A stretch of DNA of 42,800 bases from Candidatus Nealsoniibacteriota bacterium (GTDB lineage: Bacteria > Patescibacteriota > Minisyncoccia > Minisyncoccales > MHMH01), in contig JACOYH010000006.1 in NCBI GenBank assembly GCA_016181965.1, positions 1 through 42,800 on the forward strand, written 5' to 3'. How positions within the stretch are numbered: the stretch's first letter is position 1; each line of letters opens with the position of its first letter. The notes under the pieces were generated by a model. It made no database searches. It was given only the letters and a program-made list of their open reading frames with translations, and was not told the origin of the DNA. Made by a program: the position numbers and the translations under genes. Shown one piece after another: positions 7,181-39,492 of the stretch.

Positions 7181-7233
7181 GTTGGTTGAAGCCAGGCTCT
7201 AACCGACTCGGTTAGAGCCTGGCTTCAACCAAC
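7181..7233. repeat. Palindromic element family F1, copy 1
   Basis: gttggttgaagccaggctctaacc-gactc-ggttagagcctggcttcaaccaac, 24-bp perfect arms. Confidence 0.95.
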
Positions 7234-8773: not shown

Positions 8774-8802
8774 TGATGTTAGACATTCAATGTCTAACAT
8801 CA
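8774..8802. repeat. Perfect palindrome (14-1-14) between convergent genes
   Basis: tgatgttagacatt-c-aatgtctaacatca. Confidence 0.95.
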
Positions 8803-18685: not shown

Positions 18686-18750
18686 CGAATCTGCTTTATT
18701 CTACTACTAACTTTATAATTTTCCAAATATCTATAATGTATTCGAGGACT

Positions 18751-18799
18751 TTGCCGAGGACTGTCCTTGCCAGATTCTGGCAAGGACAGTCCTCGGCAA
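18751..18799. repeat. Palindromic element family F2, copy 1 (24-1-24)
   Basis: ttgccgaggactgtccttgccaga-t-tctggcaaggacagtcctcggcaa. Confidence 0.95.
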
Positions 18800-26373: not shown

Positions 26374-26398
26374 CAGTCGGATATCTCGCCGTCTAGAG

Positions 26399-26450
26399 TT
26401 GGTTGAAGCCAGGCTCTAACCAAGCTTGGTTAGAGCCTGGCTTCAACCAA
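26399..26450. repeat. Palindromic element family F1, copy 2 (52-bp perfect palindrome)
   Basis: ttggttgaagccaggctctaaccaag/cttggttagagcctggcttcaaccaa. Confidence 0.95.
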
Positions 26451-26451
26451 A

Positions 26452-26486
26452 CAAAAATGGCCCTATAAAATTATAGAGGCCACTTG
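26452..26486 (-). terminator. Intrinsic terminator of the 26538..26774 gene
   Basis: Minus strand TGGCC(T)CTATAA-TT-TTATAGGGCCA followed by TTTTTGTTT. Confidence 0.8.
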
Positions 26487-26917: not shown

Positions 26918-26964
26918 TGCCGAGGACTGTCCTCGCCAGATTCTGGCGAGGACAGTCCTCGGCA
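26918..26964. repeat. Palindromic element family F2, copy 2 (23-1-23)
   Basis: tgccgaggactgtcctcgccaga-t-tctggcgaggacagtcctcggca. Confidence 0.95.
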
Positions 26965-26971
26965 AAGTCCT

Positions 26972-36648: not shown

Positions 36649-38091
36649 TTATTTTCGTGGTCTCATCGTCGGAAATAATATAACATCCCTTAAACTATGA
36701 GAATCAGTCAGTAAAGCAACTAAACGGTCTATGCCCATGCCCAAGCCGGCGGCCGGCGGCATACCATACTGTAGCGCCTCCAAAAAATCCTTATCTTTTC
36801 TCTCGTTTTCAATTTTGGCCTGCTTAAAACGTCTCTCCTGCTCCAGTGGATCGTTCAGCTCGGAAAATCCGTTAATCAGTTCAATTCCTCCGACTACCAA
36901 TTGAAAACGATCGGCTTTTTTAGGGTCATCGGCCTTGGGTTTTGAAAGAATAGCCATCTCCGCCGGATGGTCAATCATAAAAATCGGTTTTATCATTTTT
37001 GGACGGCAGGTTTCCTTGTATATTTCGTCCATCAGTTTGCATCTTTCAATATTTTTACCTATCTTTATTTTTAACTTTTTGGCCGTTGCCGCTAACTCGG
37101 CATTTGAGGCCTTATCAATGTCAACCTCTGCGTATTTTTTCAAAAGGGCGGCAAACGTGATTTTTTCCCATGGCTTTTTAAAATCAATATCATTGCCTTG
37201 ATAAGAAAGCCGGGTCGACCCCTTGGTTTTCTTGAGAAGTTCTTGAAAAACATCCTCAATAAAATCCATTAGGCCGTCTCTATTCTGATAAGACCAGTAA
37301 AGCTCCAACATAGTGAAGTCGGGATTGTGGTGCTTATCCATGCCTTCATTCCTAAAACATCTGCCAATTTCGTACACTTTTTCGAATCCGCCAACCAACA
37401 ATCGTTTCAGGTAAAGCTCTGGAGCCACCCGCAGATAAAGATCGAGATTTAGGGCATTCAAATGCGTCTTAAACGGTTTTGCCAAGGCGCCTCCGGGAAT
37501 GGGCTGCAAAATAGGTGTTTCCACCTCCATAAAGCCAGCGCTATTGAAAGCGTTGCGCAGTTCTTCCACAATTCTGCTTCGCATTAAAAATTTCTCCCTC
37601 ACTTCGGGATTCATTATTAAGTCAAGGTATCGTTTTCTGAACCTTTCCTCGACATCCTGAAGACCATGCCATTTTTCGGGCAAGGGCAGCAATGCCTTGG
37701 TCAGCATCCTATAGCTTGAGGCCTCAATTGTCTTTTCGCCTCGTTTGGTCTCAAAAAGAACTCCGCCTATTTCCACGATGTCGCCGATATCAAAATTATC
37801 CAAAAATAATTTATAATTATTTTTACCTAATTTATCTTCCTTAAAATAGGCCTGCATTCGGCCCTTGCCATCTTCAAAATGAATAAAAGTTGAACCGCCG
37901 TGCTCCCTGATGGACACCACCCTGCCAGCCAAAAAAATAGGGGTTTCTGATCGGGAAAGGCGCTCGAATTGCAGCAAGGCCTCTTCAACTGTATGAGTTC
38001 TATTGGTTTTTGCCGGGTAAGGATTCTGCCCGGCCGCCTTAATCGCCTCGAGCTTTTTCAAACGAATTTTTTTGATGCTTGAAATTGCCAT
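36649..38091 (-). CDS. lysS: Lysine-tRNA ligase (class II)
   Basis: FRKRYLDLIMNPEVREKFLMRSRIVEELR, RIAPELYLKR-like, GLGMGIDRLVALLTDSHSLRDVILFPTMRP. Confidence 0.96.
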   Translation of the reverse strand: MAISSIKKIRLKKLEAIKAAGQNPYPAKTNRTHTVEEALLQFERLSRSETPIFLAGRVVSIREHGGSTFIHFEDGKGRMQAYFKEDKLGKNNYKLFLDNFDIGDIVEIGGVLFETKRGEKTIEASSYRMLTKALLPLPEKWHGLQDVEERFRKRYLDLIMNPEVREKFLMRSRIVEELRNAFNSAGFMEVETPILQPIPGGALAKPFKTHLNALNLDLYLRVAPELYLKRLLVGGFEKVYEIGRCFRNEGMDKHHNPDFTMLELYWSYQNRDGLMDFIEDVFQELLKKTKGSTRLSYQGNDIDFKKPWEKITFAALLKKYAEVDIDKASNAELAATAKKLKIKIGKNIERCKLMDEIYKETCRPKMIKPIFMIDHPAEMAILSKPKADDPKKADRFQLVVGGIELINGFSELNDPLEQERRFKQAKIENERKDKDFLEALQYGMPPAAGLGMGIDRLVALLTDSHSLRDVILFPTMRPRK

Positions 38092-38147: not shown

Positions 38148-38169
38148 AGTCGAGAACCGTTCTCGACTC
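38148..38169. repeat. Palindromic family F3, copy 1 (downstream of the RAYT-like gene)
   Basis: agtcgagaac-c-gttctcgactc. Confidence 0.95.
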
Positions 38170-38172
38170 ATT

Positions 38173-38889
38173 TTATTCTATTCCTACCTGTTCAAAATCG
38201 GCTAACTCTTTTTTAAACTGAAGCCAATCATTCACAAATCTTTGACTCTCTTTTGTCCCGCCAATCTCTTCAAGCAAAAATTCCCTACTGGTCACTGATG
38301 GGAAATTTTTTCTGCTTAAATAATCGGAATAGCTTGACCATCGATAATTTTCTATGAATTTTATTACCCTTTGCAAGGCCTCGCCCTTAATGCCTCTTTC
38401 CTTCCATTTCGGCACTAAAATAGCCACCGGATTAGTATGAATATAAACAAAAACTGTCAATAATTGCTTATCATTTTTAATATGGACAATCCGATATTTA
38501 CCCTGAAATAGATGACCGCTTCTTTTATATTTTTTGTTGTAATAGCCGCCATATCCCGCTCCGATCTTCCTCATTAGTTTACTAATGCCTCCTTCCTTCA
38601 GCTGTCTTACTAATAAATGCACATGATTCGACATCAAACAAAATGCTAAAATCTCAGTTAAAAGCTTTCTTGGTTCCCTTTCTATCGGTAATGAGTCGAG
38701 AACCGTTCTCGACCTATTTATCGTGTTGCGATATGACGATGCCGCAGGCGCCTCATTGTTAAATACAAATAAATCGTGAATCATTCTTAAAAAATCTTTT
38801 TGGTTACGAAAAAGTTCTATGTTCTCTATCGCTCGAATAACAATGTGGTAGATTTCTCCGTTAGCTAGTTGTGGTCGCTTGATAGGCAT
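38173..38889 (-). mobile_element. REP-associated tyrosine transposase (RAYT / Y1_Tnp, IS200-like) gene
   Basis: GEIYHIVIRAIENIELFRNQKDFLRM, FCLMSNHVHLLVRQ (HUH), SGHLFQGKYRIVHI, FVYIHTNPV, YRWSSYSDYL. Confidence 0.9.
38693..38713. repeat. Palindromic family F3, copy 2 (inside the RAYT-like CDS, in frame)
   Basis: gagtcgagaac-c-gttctcgac; encodes RSRTVLDS. Confidence 0.95.
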
Positions 38890-38909: not shown

Positions 38910-38930
38910 GTCGAGAACCGTTCTCGACTC
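38910..38930. repeat. Palindromic family F3, copy 3 (upstream of the RAYT-like gene)
   Basis: gtcgagaac-c-gttctcgactc. Confidence 0.95.
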
Positions 38931-39033: not shown

Positions 39034-39492
39034 CTATTCTATTTTCAATATTTTGTATCTGATCTTTCCCCCCGGTGTTTCCACCGCCACCATCGCCCCC
39101 TTTTGCTGATTGACCAATGCCTTACCCAACGGCGAATCTATAGAGATTTTGCGCTCCATTGGGTTGCCCTCTTCTGTTCCCACAATCTGAAAAGTTTCTT
39201 CATTGGGGCCGCTGCTCACCAGCACAGTCGAGCCGATTTGAGCGAAATTGCCCTGCTTGCTCGCGGGCGCCACAATCGCATTATTAATTAAACTCTCTAG
39301 CTCTAAAATCCGGCCCTCCACGAAGCCCTGTTCTTCTTTGGTTTCGTGGTATTCCGCATTTTCAGACAAATCGCCAAAGGCAATACATTTTTCAAGCCGC
39401 TCGGCTATTTCTTTGCGCTTGCTTTCCCTAAGGTATTTCAGCTCTTCTTTCAACTTTTTAAGCCCTTCCGGGGTGAGATATTTTGGTTCCAT
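39034..39492 (-). CDS. greA: Transcription elongation factor GreA
   Basis: YLTPEGLKKLKEELKYLRESKRKEIAERLEKCIAFGDLSENAEYHETKEEQGFVEGRI. Confidence 0.95.
   Translation of the reverse strand: MEPKYLTPEGLKKLKEELKYLRESKRKEIAERLEKCIAFGDLSENAEYHETKEEQGFVEGRILELESLINNAIVAPASKQGNFAQIGSTVLVSSGPNEETFQIVGTEEGNPMERKISIDSPLGKALVNQQKGAMVAVETPGGKIRYKILKIE

Follow-up and report, generated by a model that had tools for sequence, protein, structure and literature searches.

The RAYT-like transposase gene of the window, by which we mean the whole 42,800-nucleotide stretch of DNA that was analysed, carries within its reading frame a third copy of the palindrome that flanks it on both sides, and in related elements, which come almost without exception from tiny, uncultured Patescibacteria of the same order, this inner copy changes together with the ends of its own element. 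The in-step change of inner copy and ends points to in-place rewriting of palindromes by some copying process. We give a slightly better than even chance to the reading that the inner palindrome has been resident since an early date in a tolerant loop of the enzyme, as a third copy that is inherited and continually rewritten to equal the ends.

The ORF lies between what we take, from their translations, to be a lysyl-tRNA-synthetase-like ORF (36649-38091) and a GreA-like ORF (39034-39492). Its product matches the Y1_Tnp profile PF01797 with 41.5 bits against a cut-off of 23, and its AlphaFold model (mean pLDDT 91.8) has the TnpAREP-REP complex 4er8 as the best match among solved structures (Z 15.2, rmsd 2.7, 153 residues), which bears out the sequence-only reading of this ORF as RAYT-like. 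The residues H89, H91, Y149, and N153 are all invariant in an alignment of 94 homologs, and the Y-x3-N spacing from the tyrosine to the metal ligand is the one described for TnpAREP (PMC6006769). The best NCBIfam match is NF047646, the REP-associated tyrosine transposase, at 43.1 bits and thus below its cut-off of 80, so that by its profile scores the protein is a divergent RAYT relative and not an NF047646 equivalog. The sole low-confidence stretch within the model is the loop of residues 51-70, with blocks at pLDDT 58-59, which houses the internal palindrome (Table 1).

Table 1. Coordinates of the transposase ORF of the window, its motifs, and its three palindromes.
Feature	Position	Strand	Basis or remark
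RAYT/TnpAREP-like Y1 HUH transposase ORF, 238 aa	38173..38889	-	PF01797; AlphaFold model vs 4er8
HxH (HUH) metal-binding motif H89-V-H91	38617..38625	-	unvarying across 94 aligned homologs
Candidate catalytic Y149 and metal ligand N153 (Y-x3-N)	38431..38445	-	unvarying across 94 aligned homologs
Loop, codons 51-70, low confidence, probably disordered, houses internal palindrome	38680..38739	-	AlphaFold pLDDT
Upstream terminal palindrome (U)	38910..38928	.	20 nt ahead of ATG; identical 19-mer
Internal palindrome (I), in frame, codons 59-65 (RSRTVLD)	38695..38713	.	sequence
Downstream terminal palindrome (D)	38149..38167	.	immediately past stop codon; identical 19-mer

The internal palindrome reads GTCGAGAACGGTTCTCGAC in frame at R59-D65, corresponding to GTCGAGAACCGTTCTCGAC on the + strand at 38695-38713, and it precedes the HVH motif. 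It is 19 bp long, has the form GTCGAGAAC-S-GTTCTCGAC, and is the same at all three places. The sequence-only reading had placed an in-frame palindrome within 38690-38760, ahead of HVH, and had regarded it as the element's own; both claims hold, the same 19-mer flanking the ORF on both sides. Of the peptide N-R-S-R-T-V-L-D-S that it gave for the palindrome, RSRTVLD is encoded by the palindrome itself, and N58 and S66 lie outside. The 19-mer has 6 occurrences in the 603-kb genome to which the window belongs, where the reversed control pattern has 0 and chance would yield about 10^-6 to 10^-5. None of 60 synonymous-codon shuffles of the loop attained the observed arm score, which indicates that the palindrome is no by-product of the encoded peptide. 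A chance palindrome is ruled out by the genome count, by these shuffles, and by the mismatched-pair controls of the survey that follows.

The same genome contains 8 RAYT-related ORFs, 7 of them with palindromes on both sides, and the flanking palindrome differs in sequence in each of the 7. An inner copy is clear in L001, L002, L003, and L005 and degraded in L006. A sample of homologs from 40 relatives, the order (247 genomes), and a contig database gave 212 distinct ORFs, 82 of which passed a strict test for flanking by a common palindrome. Each of these was scored by the closest match to its end palindrome within the ORF, and palindromes from unrelated elements served as the control, with 984 mismatched pairs giving a mean of 7.0, a 99th percentile of 10.5, and a maximum of 11.5. 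The observed mean over the 82 elements was 17.8, with the inner match above the control 99th percentile in 63 and above the control maximum in 61. A full set of upstream, inner, and downstream copies is found in 68 elements, nearly all of them from Patescibacteria of the same order. The palindrome sequence varies widely among elements, and the inner copy resembles the ends of its own element. The inner copy is generally single and always in the same loop, with its centre 20-39 residues ahead of HxH; the rest of the ORF has none. No palindrome of a foreign family was found among the inner sites checked; the exceptions at these sites are two A+T-rich chance palindromes and L184, in which the contig ends short of the upstream flank.

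A phylum-wide sample of 286 genomes, in which 48 new loci were analysed, contained 20 elements with end palindromes. The inner copy occurs at the same place in 6 of these (L266, L270, L271, L277, L293, and L311) and is lacking in 13; a seventh match, in L269, was discounted because it is situated at or past HxH. A substitute third copy located elsewhere was considered for elements missing the inner one and rejected, 13 of 19 such elements having a single copy per side. In L216 and L039 doublets occupy the upstream, inner, and downstream places alike, the doublet state being common to all three. G005 (JACPGX01, Ca. Nealsonbacteria) has 17 RAYT-like candidates in 0.8 Mb, and G001, a relative of the same genus, shows none.

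What is conserved at the inner site is, on the evidence of phase and shuffling, the DNA and not the peptide, because both the codon phase and the peptide vary and synonymous shuffles abolish the palindrome. All three codon phases of the inner palindrome are in use (42, 18, and 8 elements), and L001 and L145 have the core CGAGAAC-N-GTTCTCG in common, yet encode RSRTVLD and YENRSRS, respectively. All 60 synonymous shuffles are beaten by 57 of 107 loops with a match, by 1 of 33 without, and by 0 of 62 from other bacteria. A score of 9 is found in 55 of the 107 loops, as opposed to 1 of 107 for a stretch of the same length downstream of HxH in the same ORFs. Where inner copies deviate from their ends, 9 changes are synonymous and 25 non-synonymous, about as expected without peptide constraint. 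It is therefore barely credible that the encoded peptide matters and the palindrome is incidental: R-T-V-L does recur in the sub-clade of the window element, but the peptides and phases are various, the loop is modelled at low confidence, and silent reshuffling of the codons breaks up the palindrome. Selection for an mRNA hairpin in the coding region, acting on translation or RNA stability, is also highly improbable. The coding strand could fold into a hairpin, and other genes for transposases of this type are under the control of RNA structure. Against this, arm mismatches show no excess of G:U (6, versus 10 A:C), any stable hairpin would do, and the identity of the inner copy with the ends would be left unexplained.

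The long loop is not confined to elements with a palindrome. From strand 1 to HxH, homologs from other phyla have 45-46 residues and elements with an inner copy a median of 78 (68-100); relatives without the palindrome have a median of 75, and those of a clade with the conserved peptide NILWQ... have 78-80. Since this segment is about as long without the palindrome, the long loop is a property of the whole group, and the palindrome is one tenant of the loop. The sequence-only reading had asked whether homologs lack the palindrome sequence with a clean gap, and the answer is mixed. Homologs from other phyla do lack the whole segment, but the palindrome-free relatives keep it and show no clean gap of palindrome size. 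The sequence-only reading would have been refuted by a conserved, alignable peptide here in homologs without a palindrome; the NILWQ peptide is unlike the palindrome-encoded one and so does not refute it in this way. The sub-clade of L004, L054, L057, L058, L060, L220, L223, and L224 has end palindromes and no inner copy, and its loop is of fixed length with a conserved peptide of the type NILWQIEKNRGEVNLKILKDY.

In a tree computed without the loop, the Patescibacteria part has the inner copy in 106 of its 136 rows and the outgroup in 0 of 23, and the label changes 16 times, compared with 44.7 after shuffling. As this tree has it, the inner copy is inherited clade-wide, with losses. A single origin is likely, and is put no more firmly because the tree is weak at the root and along some deep branches. 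A clade of 12 rows (support 100/93) is without the inner copy and has the different, NILWQ... peptide; other losses are single and mostly by in-place decay. In the 12-row clade and scattered other elements without the copy, the ORF stays open, and most also keep the ends. The sequence-only reading had proposed a local self-insertion of the element into its own transposase, and this does not fit an inner copy common to most RAYTs of a large clade at the same place; any insertion would be ancient, with the sequence since rewritten along with the ends. Extended to repeated, recent, independent insertions into each RAYT gene at a preferred target, the model is very unlikely. It can appeal to palindromes of these families that lie in frame in other genes, but the same loop is occupied in more than 100 elements, the clustering on the tree is far above chance, the 12-row clade has not regained a copy despite persisting end palindromes, and the copy-free relatives have no clean gap.

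Sister elements whose ends have diverged show concerted change. Across 27 independent sister pairs, the ends of the two sisters differ at 70 arm positions, giving 280 readings, and the base of the inner copy agrees with its own ends in 258, with the sister's in 8, and with neither in 14; these proportions are somewhat favourable in that the 68-element set was picked for matching copies, although sister pairs with 1-3 differing positions would pass the selection threshold regardless. L030 (ACTGACGAGAAC...) and L040 (ACATACGAGAAC...), for example, differ at the same arm positions in every one of the three copies. Single-base centres show no pattern of orientation, and the orientation of asymmetric centres is near random; three-base asymmetric centres occur in too few elements to be informative, and, judged by eye, none of these has three copies alike.

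Palindromes of these families also occur away from their RAYT genes. In this genome they number 5 to about 21 copies per family, as singles and, in several families, as inverted doublets. The window family has 3 further copies and thus 6 in total, 3 of them in frame within ORFs; besides the inner copy, these are one each in murC and an elp3-like gene, both names being our assignment from reading the sequences. The parallel that had been drawn with in-frame palindromes known inside genes holds, in view of these two of the three other copies. At the murC site (L314-L323; G000:C7:6202), G000 has the window-family copy, G005 has TGTGCACCCCCGCGGGGTGCACA, G004 has ATGTTAGACGTCGGACGTCTAACAT, and G007 has a degenerate palindrome, while G001 and order-level relatives have an ordinary NPE... 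segment. The G004 palindrome, ATGTTAGACGTCGGACGTCTAACAT, is also the palindrome pair around a RAYT-like ORF in G005. At the elp3-like site (L333, L334, and L338; G000:C3:6938), G000 has the window (L001) family, G004 a degraded palindrome, and G005, which is the genome of L046, the L046 family (24/25); the palindrome is absent from this site in G009 and G012. In murC, a cell-wall gene, the pattern resembles turnover of palindromes at one fixed place, and in-place rewriting apparently extends into host genes, as far as a comparison of two genes in few genomes can indicate.

Further palindromes are present in the window. REPIN-like inverted doublets at 7181-7233 and 26395-26454 are close to the palindrome of the L005 RAYT (GGTTAGAGCC/GGTTGAAGCC), of which more copies occur throughout the genome. 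A second family, of 48 nt (TTGCCGAGGACTGTCC...), lies at 18745-18799 and 26918-26971 and has many copies in the genome, some within long ORFs; no RAYT for this family was found. A single near-copy of the L007-family palindrome, with 2 mismatches, is at 8776-8800.

In the preferred explanation, the resident site would be the disordered, length-tolerant loop between the first helix and the strand leading into HxH, and rewriting would hold the inner copy equal to both ends while the palindrome drifts between elements. The copying agent would most likely be the RAYT itself, cleaving and strand-transferring folded single-stranded hairpins. Single-stranded REPs, once folded, are in vitro substrates for binding, cleavage, and recombination by TnpAREP (PMC8266576), which makes the RAYT the natural candidate; hairpin template switching in replication is an alternative. 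The RAYT would act mainly in cis, a proposal made because inner sites never hold the palindrome of another family, and a purely passive site among several RAYT families might sometimes show a foreign one; cis action would account for the absence of such palindromes. The inner copy could then persist without a separate function, travelling with the enzyme that refreshes it and being refreshed indefinitely, and copies in host genes should decay after the loss of their family.

The main competing reading, which we consider unlikely, is that the inner palindrome has a function as a third cognate site and is kept equal to the ends by selection, the RAYT binding or cutting it in its own gene (negative feedback or self-limitation) or using it in strand exchange. 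The fixed position, the exclusive match to the element's own family, and the clade-wide retention would fit such a site, as would the near-perfect palindromes that remain at the ends and in the inner copy; retention in most intact main-clade elements could reflect selection. Mismatched arm pairs are, however, commoner in the inner copy (27 of 431) than in the ends (5 of 409 and 9 of 413), asymmetric centres are oriented close to random, copy-free elements keep an open ORF, and turnover in place is seen in host genes too, where such a role is unexpected. A DNA-looping operator pair was rejected on the lack of significant helical phasing in the upstream-inner and inner-downstream distances, the former of which also speaks against a simple looping repressor. 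More broadly, and only slightly less doubtful, RAYTs may drive palindrome-for-palindrome replacement at fixed sites, including sites in host coding sequence, with the inner copy as a maintained functional third site. If true, a single enzyme family would keep the palindromes at the ends, at the inner site, and at scattered coding positions alike during sequence evolution.

These elements bear on the problem of how REP-type palindromes spread and how RAYT and palindrome change jointly. As one of the palindromes is bound by a reading frame, copying, selection, and decay become separable in the natural record, and in-place rewriting is a testable prediction. The murC and elp3-like cases suggest that host coding sequences are edited by such a process in very small genomes.

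Among known systems, the IS200/IS605 elements (IS608 and ISDra2) likewise have HUH transposases that act on single strands, recognise end hairpins, and share a similar core fold; to our knowledge, none carries its end hairpin a further time in its interior. As the metal ligand that follows the tyrosine, IS608 has Q (PMC6006769) and the window RAYT has N. Also close is the RAYT/TnpAREP REPtron (PMC2817692, PMC8266576), with which these elements share a Y1 HUH enzyme with Y-x3-N and a fold nearest to 4er8, an ORF set between palindromes that vary in concert with the enzyme, and further copies as singles and inverted doublets. They differ in the third copy within the ORF, in variable centre orientation, in having the modest copy numbers given above where REPtrons have hundreds, and in some 30 residues more ahead of HxH than homologs of other phyla. 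The palindromes are also not enriched in GTAG tags (14-16 of 68 copies versus 13 by chance) or CGTC tags (9-13 of 68 versus 11 by chance), which tells against a plain REP reading. Unlike the REP class, the window family is not high-copy or mainly extragenic. Inverted doublets belonging to a RAYT family recall REPINs/BIMEs, which are described as dispersed elements (PMC3116915), and none is reported inside a RAYT gene in the literature examined. The REP/RAYT literature searched, in which few subscription journals were covered, gave no mention of a RAYT gene that contains a cognate palindrome. The co-variation of RAYTs with flanking REPs is already known (PMC2817692), and the new part is the in-frame inner copy that tracks the ends. 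The Rickettsia palindromic elements and other intragenic REPs resemble the present case in placing in-frame palindromes in protein genes (here RAYT, murC, and elp3-like), but those elements are found in many unrelated genes, mostly at differing sites (PMC3733652), whereas here a single site of one gene family is occupied clade-wide by a palindrome that follows the ends of its own element.
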